Positions 5,261 to 11,296 of a DNA stretch of 64,000 nucleotides are shown here, piece by piece. The translations under genes and the position numbers were made by a program. The stretch spans positions 1 through 64,000 of the forward strand of contig JBBFKT010000002.1 of assembly GCA_037482015.1 (NCBI GenBank). Reading direction: 5' to 3'. Below the pieces are notes generated by a model. That model ran no database searches, was not told the origin of the DNA, and worked only from the letters and a program-made list of their open reading frames with translations. The stretch's first letter is position 1; each line of letters opens with the position of its first letter. The stretch comes from Thermodesulforhabdaceae bacterium. Lineage in GTDB: Bacteria > Desulfobacterota > Syntrophobacteria > Syntrophobacterales > Thermodesulforhabdaceae.

Positions 5261-6583
5261 ATGGAAGTGACAGCCTTGCAGCCGAGGAAAATTTCGGAGG
5301 ATATCAAGAATTATCTCAATAAGCTTAATCTTTCTTACTGCCTTACCTGCGGCACCTGTTCTAACGGATGCCCCATTACGGGAAATCCTGGAGCAGAGGG
5401 ACTTGATATAAGGAAAGCTCTCAGGATGATCGCTCTGGGACTTATAGACGAATTGGTGAATTCTAAATTCCCGTGGTTATGCACGGGGTGTGGACGGTGT
5501 GCTCAGTCCTGTCCTATGAATATTGACATTCCGTATATTATGCTCCACATGAAGCATCTTCGCCCGAGGGATCAAGTTCCGGGTATTTTGCATAAAGGGG
5601 TTGAAAAGTGTCTAGCCACAGGTAACAACCTTGCTATACCAGAAGAAGATTATCTGTTCCTTATGCATGACATGGGTAACGAACTTGCCGATGAGTGTTG
5701 CCCGGGATTTTATGTGCCTATAGATAAAGAAGGTGCCGATATTCTCTTTTTCCCAAACTCCAAAGAAGTCTTTTCTGACAATGAAGATATGAAATGGTGG
5801 TGGAAAATCTTCTACGCCGCTAAGGAAAACTGGACTATTCCGCTCACCAACTGGGAGGCTGTTGACTGGGGAATCTTTACCGGTAATTACGAAGCGAACA
5901 TGGAACTTGCCCGTCGCAAGATTGAGCATATGAAAAGACTTGGTATAAAGCGTATGATAATGCCCGACTGTGGAGGAGGCTCTTACGGGTGCCGAGTTGG
6001 TATGAAACATCTTTGTGAAATGGATCCATCCAACAGGGTGCACTTCATTTATCTTTATGAGTATCTTGTTGAACTGATCAAATCAGGTCGAATTAAGCTC
6101 GATAAAAGTGTCCATGCCGGAAAGGTTTTCACCTGGCACGATTCATGTAAGCATGGGCGCGAACTGGAACGACATTTTGGGAAGGGCTTTTATGATGAAC
6201 CTCGCTGGATAATTCAGCAATGTGTTGACGATTTTGTGGATATGGAACCCAATCGTTCCCTTTCTTTTTGCTGTGGAGCCGGTAGTGGTAACTGGCCTAC
6301 TCCATACGAAGACGATGCTGCATGGCATGGCAGAAGGAAATACGAATCGATCAAGAACAGTGGTGCTAATGTTGTCGTGGTGGGCTGCTCCAACTGCCGT
6401 GACCAGCTTATGAGGCGAATCCCGAAGTATTTCACAGATTACCCCTATGAAGTTAAATATATCTGGCAGTTGGTAGCGGAATCTCTTGTTATTGAACCAT
6501 GGAGTGATGAAGAGATTGAAGCGGCTCAGAAGGAAGCCGCCGCACAATGGGAACGGCTCGGCTTCTCTCCTGAGGAAGAGTAA
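5261..6583 (+). CDS. HdrD/DsrK/TmcB-like (Fe-S)-binding oxidoreductase
   Basis: A 440-residue soluble protein with two N-terminal [4Fe-4S] ferredoxin motifs: C27, C30, C33, C37 and C74, C77, C80, C84. A C-terminal CCG domain follows (HDSC ... CCGAGSGNW ... GCSNC), the cysteine pattern that binds the special [4Fe-4S] centre of heterodisulfide reductase subunit HdrD/HdrB. The first CCG repeat (PDCGGGSYGC) is degenerate. Relatives in sulfate reducers are DsrK and TmcB, which pass electrons between membrane and cytoplasm. No membrane or cytochrome partner lies beside it, so the exact complex is unknown. The ATG follows GAGGAGG. An inverted repeat after the stop may end the transcript. Confidence 0.8.
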   Translation: MEVTALQPRKISEDIKNYLNKLNLSYCLTCGTCSNGCPITGNPGAEGLDIRKALRMIALGLIDELVNSKFPWLCTGCGRCAQSCPMNIDIPYIMLHMKHLRPRDQVPGILHKGVEKCLATGNNLAIPEEDYLFLMHDMGNELADECCPGFYVPIDKEGADILFFPNSKEVFSDNEDMKWWWKIFYAAKENWTIPLTNWEAVDWGIFTGNYEANMELARRKIEHMKRLGIKRMIMPDCGGGSYGCRVGMKHLCEMDPSNRVHFIYLYEYLVELIKSGRIKLDKSVHAGKVFTWHDSCKHGRELERHFGKGFYDEPRWIIQQCVDDFVDMEPNRSLSFCCGAGSGNWPTPYEDDAAWHGRRKYESIKNSGANVVVVGCSNCRDQLMRRIPKYFTDYPYEVKYIWQLVAESLVIEPWSDEEIEAAQKEAAAQWERLGFSPEEE

Positions 6584-6726: not shown

Positions 6727-7431
6727 CTATATCATTAGTTCACAAACGACGTCGTAAGCCCAGAATTCAGATCCCGCAGGGAAACTGCCATAAATAAGAT
6801 AAAATAGGGGTGATAATTTGTGTTTAACTTGCTGTTCTTCCGGCACATTGAGTCTTTTTATAGAAAGAGGTTGACGATGGATTGTCTTTTTTTCCATGTC
6901 CAAGAGCTTTACATAACACTTTCTTCCTTCTAATTCCTCTCGCGAATTTACGAATGCGCCAATTAGAATAGTTCCCCCTTTGGAAGTTTTAAAAGCCTGG
7001 GCATAGGAATCAAAAAGCTTAGTTACAGGGGCAATAAGCTGAGTATCTCCTGGAGGTGAATGTTTAGATGGAGAAGGGCCCTGTTTTGTTGGTTTACCTT
7101 CAGCTATTGTAATATTCCTCCTTTTTTTCAAAAAATCCATAAGAATAACCAGATTATCACCCGTTGGTCCTTCTATAGCCTTCGATAGAAGATATTGTGA
7201 ATCAATATCGGCGTGCATTATTCTTTCCTCGATAGTTTGAATATCCGCCATGCTTAGTCCTACAGTGCCGCCTGGGGCATCGAACTTTATCTCGTTTCCC
7301 TTTTTCCAGCAGTATGGAAAAGTGAGAGTATTACCGTTGTGAAGTGTTGCCATAATATCACCACCGTGCGCAATACTCGCCATAAAAGCCCAAAATACAA
7401 CCCCCAAAGTAGCAACTATCTTTTTTTGCAT
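6727..7431 (-). CDS. Secreted protein of unknown function
   Basis: I do not recognise this 234-residue protein. Its first 23 residues form a Sec signal peptide (two lysines, a hydrophobic core, likely cut after AHG). There is no lipobox, so it is probably periplasmic. Residues about 25-75 look like a small beta domain (LHNGNTLTF ... GGTVGLSMADIQTIEE), followed by a Pro/Ser/Lys-rich linker near 112-128 and a second folded region to the end. It is divergent from the DUF457 gene at 7500. The ATG follows a purine-rich GGAGGG site. Confidence 0.6.
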   Translation of the reverse strand: MQKKIVATLGVVFWAFMASIAHGGDIMATLHNGNTLTFPYCWKKGNEIKFDAPGGTVGLSMADIQTIEERIMHADIDSQYLLSKAIEGPTGDNLVILMDFLKKRRNITIAEGKPTKQGPSPSKHSPPGDTQLIAPVTKLFDSYAQAFKTSKGGTILIGAFVNSREELEGRKCYVKLLDMEKKTIHRQPLSIKRLNVPEEQQVKHKLSPLFYLIYGSFPAGSEFWAYDVVCELMI

Positions 7432-7499: not shown

Positions 7500-8018
7500 T
7501 TGTCTATACTAAAAAAATGTAAAGTGAAAGCCATAAATCATAGAATTACCTCAGCTTCTTTTATACTTATAACGGGCGGATCCTGGCTGGAAGCGTTGTA
7601 TGCTTTTTTACTTGGGAGCATCCCCGACCAGATTGAACGCATAGGATCCAAACGTCTAATGGCGCACCGCAGTTTTTCCCACGATCTTGGATTGTGGATC
7701 GGCTTAATTCTCTTTGTTCTATTTTGCCCCTTTTCGCCTCCGGGATTGATAACAATTCCTTCCGGTTACCTTAAAGGAATTTTCTCCTTTAGAACCTGGG
7801 TGCTTTTCCTTCCAGGTTTATTACATTGTTTTTTCGACATGTTGACCCCTAAGGGTGTTCCTTTCCTGGGAGTTAGGTTGTCCTTTCCCATTCTTAACCA
7901 TGGTATGTGGAAGGAGTATCTTCTTTCATGGAGTTTCCTGTTCGTAGGAGTGGTAGCTCACGCTGAGAGATTTTCCCACATTGTTACGGCACTCTGGAGA
8001 CGTATTGAATTCCCATAA
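7500..8018 (+). CDS. YdjM/DUF457 family membrane-bound metal-dependent hydrolase-like protein
   Basis: A 172-residue membrane protein of the LexA-binding inner-membrane hydrolase family (YdjM, DUF457). Visible marks are NHRITSA at the start, GSIPDQIE, AHRSFSHDLG and HCFFDMLTPKGVP, whose His and Asp residues are the presumed metal ligands, set among four or so membrane segments. The biochemical role of the family is not established. The first start is TTG at 7500; GTG at 7524 would begin just before NHRITSA and fits relatives equally well. Its last 61 bases overlap the end of the convergent BPL_N gene. Confidence 0.72.
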   Translation: MSILKKCKVKAINHRITSASFILITGGSWLEALYAFLLGSIPDQIERIGSKRLMAHRSFSHDLGLWIGLILFVLFCPFSPPGLITIPSGYLKGIFSFRTWVLFLPGLLHCFFDMLTPKGVPFLGVRLSFPILNHGMWKEYLLSWSFLFVGVVAHAERFSHIVTALWRRIEFP

Positions 8019-9295
8019 TTTTTGAGTAATAGCAACGCATCAAAAAGCAGAGAATCGATTATATCAAATATCCGGCGACAAAGTCCTCCGTGGTTCATAC
8101 TGTGTCCGAAAAGATACTCTCTGAGTCCGTCAACCTGAGCATTACCTACCTGACTTGTTTTGGATAGGGGGGCGGCAAAAGATGCCAATCTTTCCATAAC
8201 AAGGAGCTTTCTGGCTAGGGTTATAAACTCATCTATAAGATTTTCCAGGCTATTAAGCTTTTCTTCCCATAGATTGGCGGAATTTCCTTTTCTTGATTCA
8301 GACATGTCTGTAAGAGCTTCTACGGATGCATAAAGAAACGCAAGGCAGGTTGCCAGCATGGAATATTCTAACCCTCTCACGCCTCTTTTCCACCCAAGTA
8401 ACCAGGGTTTTCTCCAGAACCACATCAGGTGACATTCCCCCAAACGAATAAATTCTGACACTTTAACAAGCATTCTTTTTACGACATGGCAGTGGTTTTT
8501 GGATGGCGGATGAGGAATGGATGTTCTTAGCCCTTCTTTTTCTATAGAGAATTTTTTTGCTTGTTCTTCAAGGTATAGCAAACATTGCCTGAAAAACTCA
8601 TTTCCTTCTTCATCCTTGGGTGTTTCAAGATGAGGGTAGGACAGAATCAGTCTCCCCGATCCATAGCAACTTTCGATGATTGCAGGGCTGTTCAGAAAGC
8701 ATCGCCATGGATCCAGATTTATACCATAAATGTCTTCTAGTTTTTTGATTTCCTCTATTTCTATACCTTCTATGGGTATGTCCGAAACCCAGAAGTCTTT
8801 TCCGAGATCCCTGTAAAAAGCAACTGGGGTTACGCAGTCCTTTTGCTCAAAAGCGAATTGTGATGGCCACCAAACAGAAGTTTTTACAACGTCCGGTAGA
8901 TTTCTACCCCAGTCTAAGTTGGATTTTTCTATTTTTATGTAAACTGTGCCACTTGCACTGGGTAATCGATCTTTGAACGAAAGTCGGCAAGTGGGCACCA
9001 TATCAAGGGTATTTTTTCCTGAAAGACCAAGTCCGGCACCTCCACAAAGACCTAAGTAACATCCGCCAGAATGCACAAACTTGCGAATGGCTTTTTCTCC
9101 TTCGGTTCCGAGAGAAGCCTTCTTATGAATAGCCCATCCACCAGGGACGATAAGCACCGAATAATGCTTAAGAGCGCCCTGGCGGATTGCTTGGGCGTTC
9201 AAAACGTCAAAGGGGAGTTGAAGTTCTAATAGTGTATCGTAAAGGAAAAGTCCCCACAGGAAAGACTGATCCCAGAAAACCGCAAAATTTTTCAC
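7958..9295 (-). CDS. BPL_N (biotin-protein-ligase N-terminal) glutamine-amidotransferase-like protein
   Basis: A 445-residue protein whose first 230 residues resemble the BPL_N / class I amidotransferase-like fold. VPGGWAI is near residue 50, and the nucleophile elbow GLCGGAGLG, with C84, is at 82-90. The remaining half is helical, rich in aromatics and leucines, with no domain I can name. The reaction is unknown. Despite the family name there is no biotin ligase catalytic domain. It is the last gene of a minus-strand operon with a CoA-disulfide-reductase-like flavoprotein and a Cys-rich protein. Its 3' end overlaps the opposite gene by 61 bases. Confidence 0.65.
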   Translation of the reverse strand: MKNFAVFWDQSFLWGLFLYDTLLELQLPFDVLNAQAIRQGALKHYSVLIVPGGWAIHKKASLGTEGEKAIRKFVHSGGCYLGLCGGAGLGLSGKNTLDMVPTCRLSFKDRLPSASGTVYIKIEKSNLDWGRNLPDVVKTSVWWPSQFAFEQKDCVTPVAFYRDLGKDFWVSDIPIEGIEIEEIKKLEDIYGINLDPWRCFLNSPAIIESCYGSGRLILSYPHLETPKDEEGNEFFRQCLLYLEEQAKKFSIEKEGLRTSIPHPPSKNHCHVVKRMLVKVSEFIRLGECHLMWFWRKPWLLGWKRGVRGLEYSMLATCLAFLYASVEALTDMSESRKGNSANLWEEKLNSLENLIDEFITLARKLLVMERLASFAAPLSKTSQVGNAQVDGLREYLFGHSMNHGGLCRRIFDIIDSLLFDALLLLKNYGNSIRLQSAVTMWENLSA

Positions 9296-9310
9296 CGCCT
9301 TGCCTTTCTT

Positions 9311-11041
9311 TTACTCTTCTTCTCCAAGATCAAGCATGCCCCCCATTTTGAGAATAGCTACTCCACCCTGAAGATTTCGCGCTTCTTTCCCGACTTTTGA
9401 CTGAATTTGCCTGAGAACCTCGTAGGATCTTGCACCTGAATTACAAACCAGTATGAGTTCTTTAGAATCTGGTAGTTCGTTGAGTCGATATTTTAGTTCT
9501 TCTTGGGGTATGTTTACCCATCGGGAGCCAAACCTTTCGACGTAAGGATTAGCATTAGCGGGAGATCTAACGTCCAGAACACACACATCACTTGGGGAAG
9601 CTTCCTCCGATCCAAAAAAAACCGAACAGAATTCTTCCGGATCTATCGTAACGTTAAGTCCTTCTATTATGTTTTCTGCCACATTTGCTATAGCGTTTAC
9701 AATGTCCATAGCCGAAGCAAAAGGTGGACTGTAAGCAACTTCCATGTTGGAGAGAGCCTCAAGGGTTGCTTTATGGGCAATCAGCGAAGCCACTACATTG
9801 ATTCTCCCAACAACGGCATCCCCGTTTTTGCCTATACCCTGAACCCCCAGAATGCGGCGGCTTTTCCTATCCGCTACAAGCGCCATATACATGAGTTCTT
9901 GAGTAGGATAAAAATGAGCTCGATCCGATTGAACAACATAAGCGCACACTGGATCGAAACCTTCGGCTTTAGCTCTCTCATAGCTTATACCGGCTGAAGC
10001 AACAGCTATATCGAAAATTTTTACGACAAAGCTCCCAACCGTTCCGTCAAAGGTGGCGTATCCTCCCGCTATATTGGTTCCAATGACGCGCCCCTGTCGA
10101 TTGGCGAGGGAGCCCTGAGGAAAATGAACCAGCTTGCCTGTCACCAAATGAGGAATTTCTATGCAGTCACCACCAGCATATATGAATGGGTCAGATGTTT
10201 GAAGTCTTCTGTTTACAACAATACCTCCCCGGGGAGTTACCAAAAGGCCCGCTTTTCGAGCCAGTTCTCCGTTCGGTTCTACTCCTACTGCCGTAATAAC
10301 AAGATCGGCGGAAAAAGAATTTTTGTTCGTTATAACATGATATGTTTCGTTATCTTTTTCTATCTTTGTTACGCTTTCATCGAGATGAACGGATACACCA
10401 TGTTCTTCCATATGTTTTTTGATAATGCTAGCCATGGTTGGCTCAACAATGCCGGGAAGTAGCTGTGGCATGATCTCAATTACGGTCGTCTCTACACCCC
10501 ACAGATCAGTAAGAGCTTCTGCCATTTCACAGCCTATAGCTCCCCCTCCTATGATTATCGCAGTTCCTACTTCCCCTTTTGCAATTCGATCCCTGATAGC
10601 TATTGCGTCATGAAGATTAGATACCGTCATTACACCTGGAAGGTCAGATCCAGGAATGGTGGGTTTTCTCGGTTTACTACCTGTTGCGATAACAAGGAAA
10701 TCATAGGGAATGGTTTCTTGGGAACCTTTTGATAAATCCTCTACCAGGATTTCCTTCTTGCGTCTGTCAATGTCTATAGCTCTAGTTTGAGTTCGAACTT
10801 CCACTTCTTTAACGTCGCGGAAGAATTGAGGCGATCTAACCATGTGAAAGCTGGTGCTCATGAGTTCCTTAACATCACTTACTTCGCCGGACACGAAGTA
10901 GGGGATTCCACAGCCCCCATAAGAAATGTATTCATCCTGGTCTATGAGAAGAACCTCGGCTTCCGGATCCAGACGCCTGAGTCTGCAAGCAACCTTAGGA
11001 CCTAAGGCAACAGCTCCAATAATAACCACTCTTTTTTTCAT
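9311..11041 (-). CDS. CoA-disulfide reductase / NADH oxidase-like flavoprotein with C-terminal rhodanese domain
   Basis: A 576-residue FAD/NAD(P)H pyridine-nucleotide-disulfide oxidoreductase fused to a rhodanese domain. The FAD Rossmann segment opens the protein. The single redox cysteine C44 in SYGGCGIPYF is the one used by CoADR and NADH oxidases. The NAD site GGGAIGCEMAEAL is near 170-184 and the second FAD motif YAGGDCIEIP near 300. The rhodanese loop VCNSGARSYE near 535 carries the persulfide-forming cysteine. CoADR-rhodanese fusions are known to reduce CoA disulfides, polysulfide or CoA-persulfide. It follows the Cys-rich gene by 30 bases and precedes the BPL_N gene by 15. Confidence 0.87.
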   Translation of the reverse strand: MKKRVVIIGAVALGPKVACRLRRLDPEAEVLLIDQDEYISYGGCGIPYFVSGEVSDVKELMSTSFHMVRSPQFFRDVKEVEVRTQTRAIDIDRRKKEILVEDLSKGSQETIPYDFLVIATGSKPRKPTIPGSDLPGVMTVSNLHDAIAIRDRIAKGEVGTAIIIGGGAIGCEMAEALTDLWGVETTVIEIMPQLLPGIVEPTMASIIKKHMEEHGVSVHLDESVTKIEKDNETYHVITNKNSFSADLVITAVGVEPNGELARKAGLLVTPRGGIVVNRRLQTSDPFIYAGGDCIEIPHLVTGKLVHFPQGSLANRQGRVIGTNIAGGYATFDGTVGSFVVKIFDIAVASAGISYERAKAEGFDPVCAYVVQSDRAHFYPTQELMYMALVADRKSRRILGVQGIGKNGDAVVGRINVVASLIAHKATLEALSNMEVAYSPPFASAMDIVNAIANVAENIIEGLNVTIDPEEFCSVFFGSEEASPSDVCVLDVRSPANANPYVERFGSRWVNIPQEELKYRLNELPDSKELILVCNSGARSYEVLRQIQSKVGKEARNLQGGVAILKMGGMLDLGEEE

Positions 11042-11071
11042 GTCTTAAAGACTCCTTGTGTTAACACAATT

Positions 11072-11296
11072 TTAATCATTTCCAAACCCGTGTATAGCTC
11101 CGCAATCAGGGCAGGTCCAGTTGATGCCGTTACACGTCATACCCCAAAGATTTTCTTCCATACAATCCCAACAAATCATAAAACCGCATGAACACCACCA
11201 GCAAAAAGGCAACTTCCTCCCGCAGGCATGGCAGACGAATTCTTTGGGTTTTCTCAATCTGGCAGTTTTTTCTCTGGCGACACTGATATTACTCAT
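11072..11296 (-). CDS. Small ten-cysteine protein, probable zinc or Fe-S mini-protein
   Basis: 74 residues with ten cysteines, arranged as CxxC (near 22), CxxCxC (32-37), CxxC (42-45), one Cys at 55 and CxxC (62-65), plus four tryptophans. The pattern suggests two or more zinc ribbons or a metal cluster. I do not recognise the family. The ATG at 11296 has a strong AAAGGAGG site 11 bases upstream; an in-frame TTG at 11320 is unlikely because it would lie inside that site's leader. It is the first gene of the operon with the CoADR-rhodanese and BPL_N genes and may serve them, for example in sulfur or redox handling. That link is inference. Confidence 0.65.
   Translation of the reverse strand: MSNISVAREKTARLRKPKEFVCHACGRKLPFCWWCSCGFMICWDCMEENLWGMTCNGINWTCPDCGAIHGFGND

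Follow-up and report, generated by a model that had tools for sequence, protein, structure and literature searches.

A cysteine-rich mini-protein, probably RING-like, shares a conserved operon with a predicted persulfide reductase and a predicted amidotransferase-fold enzyme

Introduction

What might a free-standing protein of 74 residues, ten of them cysteines, do in an operon with a flavoprotein of the persulfide-handling kind and a BPL_N protein? The question is raised by a window of 64,000 nucleotides (the whole stretch of DNA analyzed; contig JBBFKT010000002.1, positions 1–64,000, forward strand) from a Thermodesulforhabdaceae bacterium, in which three minus-strand genes are separated by 30 bases (mini-protein gene to flavoprotein gene) and 15 bases (flavoprotein gene to BPL_N gene). 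An earlier, sequence-only reading had described these genes as an operon and, from their joint order, had suggested that the mini-protein has a task in sulfur or thiol redox chemistry. We find that the three-gene operon is real and conserved beyond chance. Our preferred reading of it, to which we give a probability of roughly 0.55, is that the mini-protein is a RING-type two-zinc adaptor that works without ubiquitin and is made from the operon together with a probable partner, the BPL_N enzyme, and that the flavoprotein is a looser member. The features of the locus are:

11072–11296, minus strand: mini-protein gene, 74 residues, ten Cys and five Trp (open reading frame and homolog searches)
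11099–11239, minus strand: RING-like core, residues 20–66 of the mini-protein (Cys conservation and RING matches)
9311–11041, minus strand: fusion of CoA-disulfide reductase (CoADR) and rhodanese, predicted persulfide reductase of the Npsr type, 576 amino acids (Pfam and NCBIfam, PDB relatives, Cys alignment)
7958–9295, minus strand: BPL_N protein, predicted glutamine amidotransferase (GATase) fold plus helical domain, 445 amino acids, GTG start (Pfam, AlphaFold 2 (AF2) model, triad)
8543–9295, minus strand: class I GATase-like domain, residues 1–251 of the BPL_N protein (VIA-align)
7958–8542, minus strand: conserved helical half of the BPL_N protein, with a W-x-W-R ... WLL-W-K-R-G-x-R-G motif (alignment and model)

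Results

Is the arrangement more than a chance neighborhood? A search of the window genome and its relatives, 59 genomes in all, found the mini-protein in 44, and 43 loci were retrieved, 42 from the window's class and one, G058, from outside it (G numbers denote genomes, L numbers loci and f numbers families). When gene order was read by tblastn with the window proteins, the mini-protein gene was followed by the CoADR-rhodanese gene and then the BPL_N gene at 27 loci, by the BPL_N gene directly at 11, and by the CoADR-rhodanese gene alone at two; at two more the contig ends after the flavoprotein gene, and G058 has neither partner. The flavoprotein gene, the BPL_N gene or both thus lie downstream on the same strand in 42/42 class loci, which bears out the operon that had been proposed; its gaps in the window are 30 and 15 bases, as had been stated. 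When raw open reading frames at 44 loci were clustered, the largest cluster besides the cassette genes was a frame antisense to the cassette, present at 20 loci, and the remaining families each occurred at 12 loci or fewer, so that the cassette is conserved and its flanks are not. A GGAGGAG stretch lies upstream of the ATG of the mini-protein gene, and a promoter and terminator scan gave no signal above shuffles.

Within the cassette, the flavoprotein gene is the most variable across the class, being absent from the locus in some members of the order and in two families, f5 and f6. As genomes of f5 and f6 carry a flavoprotein copy, 47–55% identical, elsewhere in the genome, its link to the operon appears loose. 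The BPL_N enzyme is the most constant operon partner of the mini-protein within the class; within the order, conservation is lowest in the BPL_N protein and higher in the other two products.

What kind of protein does the first gene encode? The count of ten cysteines in the sequence-only reading stands, and its four tryptophans become five when counted by eye (W33, W34, W43, W51 and W60). In an alignment of 104 sequences (the window's and those of 103 loci), C22, C25, C35, C37, C42, C45, C62 and C65 are invariant, as is W60, and the additional C32 and C55 are Cys in 97/104 and 75/104. The core spacing is C22-x2-C25-x9-C35-x-C37-x4-C42-x2-C45-x16-C62-x2-C65, so that eight putative metal-ligand positions fall in four pairs, with C-x2-C at each end in 104/104, as in RING domains. 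Eleven rows (L118 and L138–L147), by eye, have CxxC instead of CxC as the second pair. Members of the family are free-standing, about 60–85 residues long, and have a basic N-terminal tail. In the classical C3HC4 RING, a histidine is the fourth ligand, with 2–3 residues between it and the third pair; in the mini-protein a Cys takes its place, with four residues between, and the pattern is the C4C4 of the Not4 type.

Profile searches of the PDB agree with this pattern. The RING of TRIM25 came out on top (E 0.0012), a further search gave TRIM5, TRIM34, RNF125 and TRIM25 at E 0.002–0.004, and yeast Not4 (5aie) was matched over the whole core, positions 19–65, at E 0.04. A control profile built from 17 reversed mini-protein sequences retrieved zero RING chains from the PDB at E up to 10. 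An AF2 model built on five sequences is weak (pLDDT 64.9); with it, RING domains lead the Foldseek list, at E 0.05 or worse, and the best VIA-align match, the RING of TRAF3, has the middling score of Z 5.1 (root-mean-square deviation (rmsd) 4.9, 64 aligned).

As had been supposed, the window mini-protein has no curated family: with it, every model of Pfam and NCBIfam stays below cut-off, and the curated RING model zf-RING_5 scores 12.3 bits for a cut-off of 27.9. Among 39 family members searched against Pfam, the commonest weak match is C1_2 (14 members, best E 5.7e-06), whose cut-off one member may reach, and DUF7577, zf-B_box and zf-RING_4 (best E 0.0045) also match weakly; the best NCBIfam match of family members is E 0.017. 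By these searches the family has no name in Pfam or NCBIfam. A literature search covering listings and the openings of abstracts found no publication on it, nor on the family formed by the BPL_N protein and its helical half. Burroughs, Iyer and Aravind (2011) reportedly surveyed prokaryotic RING fingers and may already have touched on the mini-protein family. Possible domain fusions were sought by reading the open frames of ten loci; by eye, the frames extend far upstream only through what seems to be GC-rich non-coding sequence, and we rejected them. We conclude, with moderate confidence, that the mini-protein is a RING-like C8 (C4C4) zinc protein, the zinc being predicted.

Its closest known counterparts would be the C4C4 RINGs of Not4 and CNOT4 (5aie, 1e4u), which likewise have CxxC at both ends and a CxC-x4-CxxC center. 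Unlike them, the mini-protein is free-standing and bacterial, has C32, C55 and an FCW motif, and has no E2 recognized nearby, and the similarity is weak. Another comparison is offered by the one-domain zinc finger micro-proteins of Haloferax volcanii, which the abstracts of PMC6562870, PMC10716476 and PMC11241148 describe as binding a single zinc through a pair of C(P)XCG motifs. As characterized there, they resemble the mini-protein in standing alone, in having about 70 residues or fewer and in their C(P)xCG-type zinc knuckles; they differ in their single zinc, whereas the eight invariant cysteines of the mini-protein suggest two sites. An HVO_2753 model matched one member of the mini-protein family, at E 0.037 only.

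The flavoprotein is more readily placed. Pfam and NCBIfam recognize a Pyr_redox_2, CoA-disulfide-reductase-like part and a C-terminal rhodanese, and the closest solved relatives are 3iwa, 6pfz (AfNpsr) and chains of Shewanella Npsr. C44 aligns with the Cys in the CGLPY stretch of 6pfz and the rhodanese-loop Cys with that in its CAIGLRS stretch. In the NADH-dependent persulfide reductase Npsr, passages of PMC7969121 place the active-site Cys at 42 and the rhodanese Cys at 519, and describe a relay that starts at the rhodanese Cys and reaches the active-site Cys by way of bound CoA; the aligned flavoprotein cysteines would be the equivalents of this pair. The match to Npsr (6pfz, 3nta, 4ocg) spans the whole length of the flavoprotein, with the CoADR architecture, the C-terminal rhodanese and both catalytic Cys in common, and we therefore predict an Npsr-type persulfide reductase, in keeping with the persulfide-handling fusion first described. 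Unlike Npsr as presented in those passages of PMC7969121, the window flavoprotein shares an operon with mini-protein and BPL_N genes. The window genome also holds a second CoADR-rhodanese paralog outside the window (G000:C1:392463-394142), 40% identical to the operon copy.

The third product is above the Pfam cut-off for BPL_N, with its best match at residues 44–87, and its second half matched no Pfam family, in line with the helical half that the sequence-only reading had left unassigned. In its AF2 model (pLDDT 74, pTM 0.79), residues 1–251 match class I GATases, best the Pdx2 chain 4ads_G (Z 18.2, rmsd 2.5, 192 aligned). C84 is Cys in 37/37 class rows and in 31/37 rows from outside the class, the other six having a gap there because the match was split; all rows that cover position 222 have His; and position 224 is Glu or Asp, with Asp in many rows outside the class. 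W302, G305 and G308 are retained in the helical half. Judged by this model and these residues, the BPL_N protein is a predicted GATase-fold enzyme that keeps Cys-His-Glu/Asp. It has the fold over residues 1–251 and the triad residues in common with class I GATases (PdxT/Pdx2, TrpG, HisH) and with Pfam BPL_N; unlike PdxT/Pdx2, TrpG and HisH, it is fused to a conserved helical half, and no synthetase partner was recognized in the neighborhoods of the cassette or of BPL_N loci outside the class. At six loci (L166, L169, L171, L074, L076 and L078), the BPL_N protein is longer than the window protein at the N-terminus by some tens of residues, among them a VYR-x-G/Q stretch.

Does the mini-protein keep its partners elsewhere? 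A 17-sequence profile matched it in 95 of 395 sampled phylum genomes. At 60 loci from outside the class, profile searches found BPL_N at 0/60 and the flavoprotein at 1/60 (L107, about 5 kb off), some of these contigs being so short that a far-off partner could escape detection. These loci also have no constant neighbor, no open reading frame family besides the mini-protein cluster occurring in more than 9/60. The mini-protein is accordingly independent of both operon partners, and among the loci examined its gene has the operon arrangement in the window's class only. The converse search, a second pass over the 395 genomes at E 1e-8, found BPL_N in 81, of which 53 have the full-length type by our own count and 37 of these lie outside the class. 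Four of the 37 genomes (G179, G229, G333 and G369) contain the mini-protein, and it stands at 0/37 of their BPL_N loci. No viral carrier was confirmed with the mini-protein profile or the BPL_N profile.

Beyond the sample, a single-sequence search with the mini-protein gave five loci, four of them true and all four named Syntrophobacterales, Syntrophobacteraceae or Desulfoferrobacter. The fifth, an Acidithiobacillus match (L006), was rejected as another type of protein, presumably TnpB-like, in which only ten residues matched. At L144–L147, divergent mini-proteins lie about 200 bases downstream of a different gene, which we take to encode a ribonucleotide reductase-like protein with an ATP cone.

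Discussion

How might the products of the operon work? Since eight cysteines are invariant in a RING-type pattern and the two extra ones are dispensable, we favor structural zinc over redox chemistry. The eight cysteines would form a cross-brace around two structural zinc ions, and the mini-protein may be a small adaptor that binds protein (or RNA) without a ubiquitin system. Co-produced with the GATase-fold enzyme, it would probably contact or regulate that enzyme, itself predicted to be of the amidase or ammonia-donor type with Cys84-His222-Glu224. The flavoprotein, putatively the looser member, would reduce persulfides by the known Npsr cycle, in which the rhodanese Cys, bound CoA and C44/FAD/NADH act in turn.

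Several points weigh against this adaptor reading. The RING matches are weak, at E of about 0.001–0.04 by sequence and 0.05 or worse with Foldseek, and a Cys occupies the place of the RING histidine, separated from the third pair by four residues instead of the classical 2–3. Since Pfam models of C1, B-box, FYVE and RING each match some members weakly, several treble-clef kinds are candidates for the exact kin of the mini-protein. The constancy of its partner within the class could stem from shared regulation instead of contact. Finally, three members of the order that lack the mini-protein (G011, G020 and G024) also lack a cassette-type flavoprotein, which suggests some link between these two within the order.

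If the partners vary, do they hint at a pathway? BPL_N partners vary by lineage, a cobalamin operon being among them. At the 37 loci outside the class, a TldD-type gene lies just upstream of BPL_N in eight (f21); cbiL-cbiF-cbiGH lies directly upstream in five (L168, L170, L177, L190 and L191; f34 and f30), with cobU after BPL_N in three of these; and a metallo-β-lactamase (MBL)-fold hydrolase gene lies directly upstream, with a convergent CbiA gene, in three (L166, L169 and L171; f43). The other 21 have no TldD-type, cbi or MBL gene beside BPL_N. The same MBL gene occurs upstream of the mini-protein gene, no more than about 1.2 kb away, at 11 of the 43 loci retrieved from the window genome and its relatives. 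The mini-protein gene, for its part, abuts cobU in three genomes (L113, L117 and L121; f82), and in one genus (L040 and L050) the mini-protein and CoADR genes are followed by CbiX- and CbiL-type genes. The cassette might on these grounds be an accessory of corrinoid (cobalamin) metabolism, the substrate of the BPL_N enzyme, whether or not the mini-protein takes part, being a corrinoid intermediate or its side chain. We regard this as doubtful: the cases come from few lineages, cobalamin query genes are absent from 26/37 of the BPL_N loci, three further loci have only distant matches (L167, CbiA 6 kb away; L172 and L179, a 32% CbiF match 4.8 kb away), and within the examined 4–16 kb of the window no cobalamin gene was recognized. 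We treat the cobalamin link as a lead, drawn from few lineages, and not as a conclusion. Quite unlikely, though it would join the two ideas, is that a ubiquitin-free Not4-type RING is a portable adaptor, across the phylum, for a GATase-fold enzyme that performs an unrecognized step of the cobalamin pathway.

The redox task proposed by the sequence-only reading would have the mini-protein relay or store persulfide sulfur, or be reduced by the flavoprotein. The CoADR-rhodanese gene does come next in 31/43 loci, the flavoprotein holds both Npsr cysteines, and the joint absence in three members of the order points the same way. Outside the class, however, the flavoprotein is adjacent at none of the 60 loci. 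The mini-protein is mostly found away from it across the phylum, and the BPL_N gene outside the class stands in other contexts; these are largely the two outcomes that the sequence-only reading had named as contrary to it. In 11/43 loci the mini-protein gene leads straight to BPL_N, and of the ten cysteines the two outside the RING octet are not conserved. The proposal is therefore unlikely. The sulfur reading holds for the flavoprotein itself and should not be passed on to the mini-protein.

Less probable again is a rubredoxin-like iron protein, with electron transfer at an Fe(Cys)4 site made up of the first and last CxxC pairs. The YVCxxCG and WxCPxCG ends look like rubredoxin knuckles, and the PDB matches include rubredoxin chains (E 0.35–0.85 over 10–11 residues), but these matches span one knuckle instead of a whole domain and are weaker than those to RINGs, C25 is followed by Gly in only 59/104, and four more invariant Cys go unexplained. 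A ubiquitin-like E3 ligase, which the RING-like pattern and matches would also fit, is hardly credible, since Prok-E2_B occurs in only one of the 59 relatives, 44 of which have the mini-protein (UQ_con gave 0/59, which does not count as absence as its positive control was silent too). The one Prok-E2_B match, at G027:C15:4919-5200, is above the cut-off.

These results tell apart three genes that context had lumped into one sulfur task, and draw attention to a GATase-fold enzyme family with recurring cobalamin-operon neighbors. They also describe a conserved small protein without a curated family name in about a quarter of the sampled phylum genomes. If it is a true Not4-type RING without ubiquitin, it bears on the roles of RING fingers outside ubiquitin systems and would be a small, easily expressed test case.

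Neighboring genes

On the downstream side of the cassette, the BPL_N gene meets a convergent gene for a YdjM-like membrane protein (7500–8018, plus strand), the two sharing 61 bases at their 3′ ends (7958–8018), and the same convergent pair is present in L036, L037, L038 and L039. An Fe-S protein with Fer4 and CCG domains is encoded at 5261–6583; it is HmcF/TmcB/DsrK-like yet far under those curated cut-offs. Between these, 6727–7431 encodes a protein of 234 residues that matched nothing in Pfam or NCBIfam and has a 31% relative near the mini-protein gene in L037.

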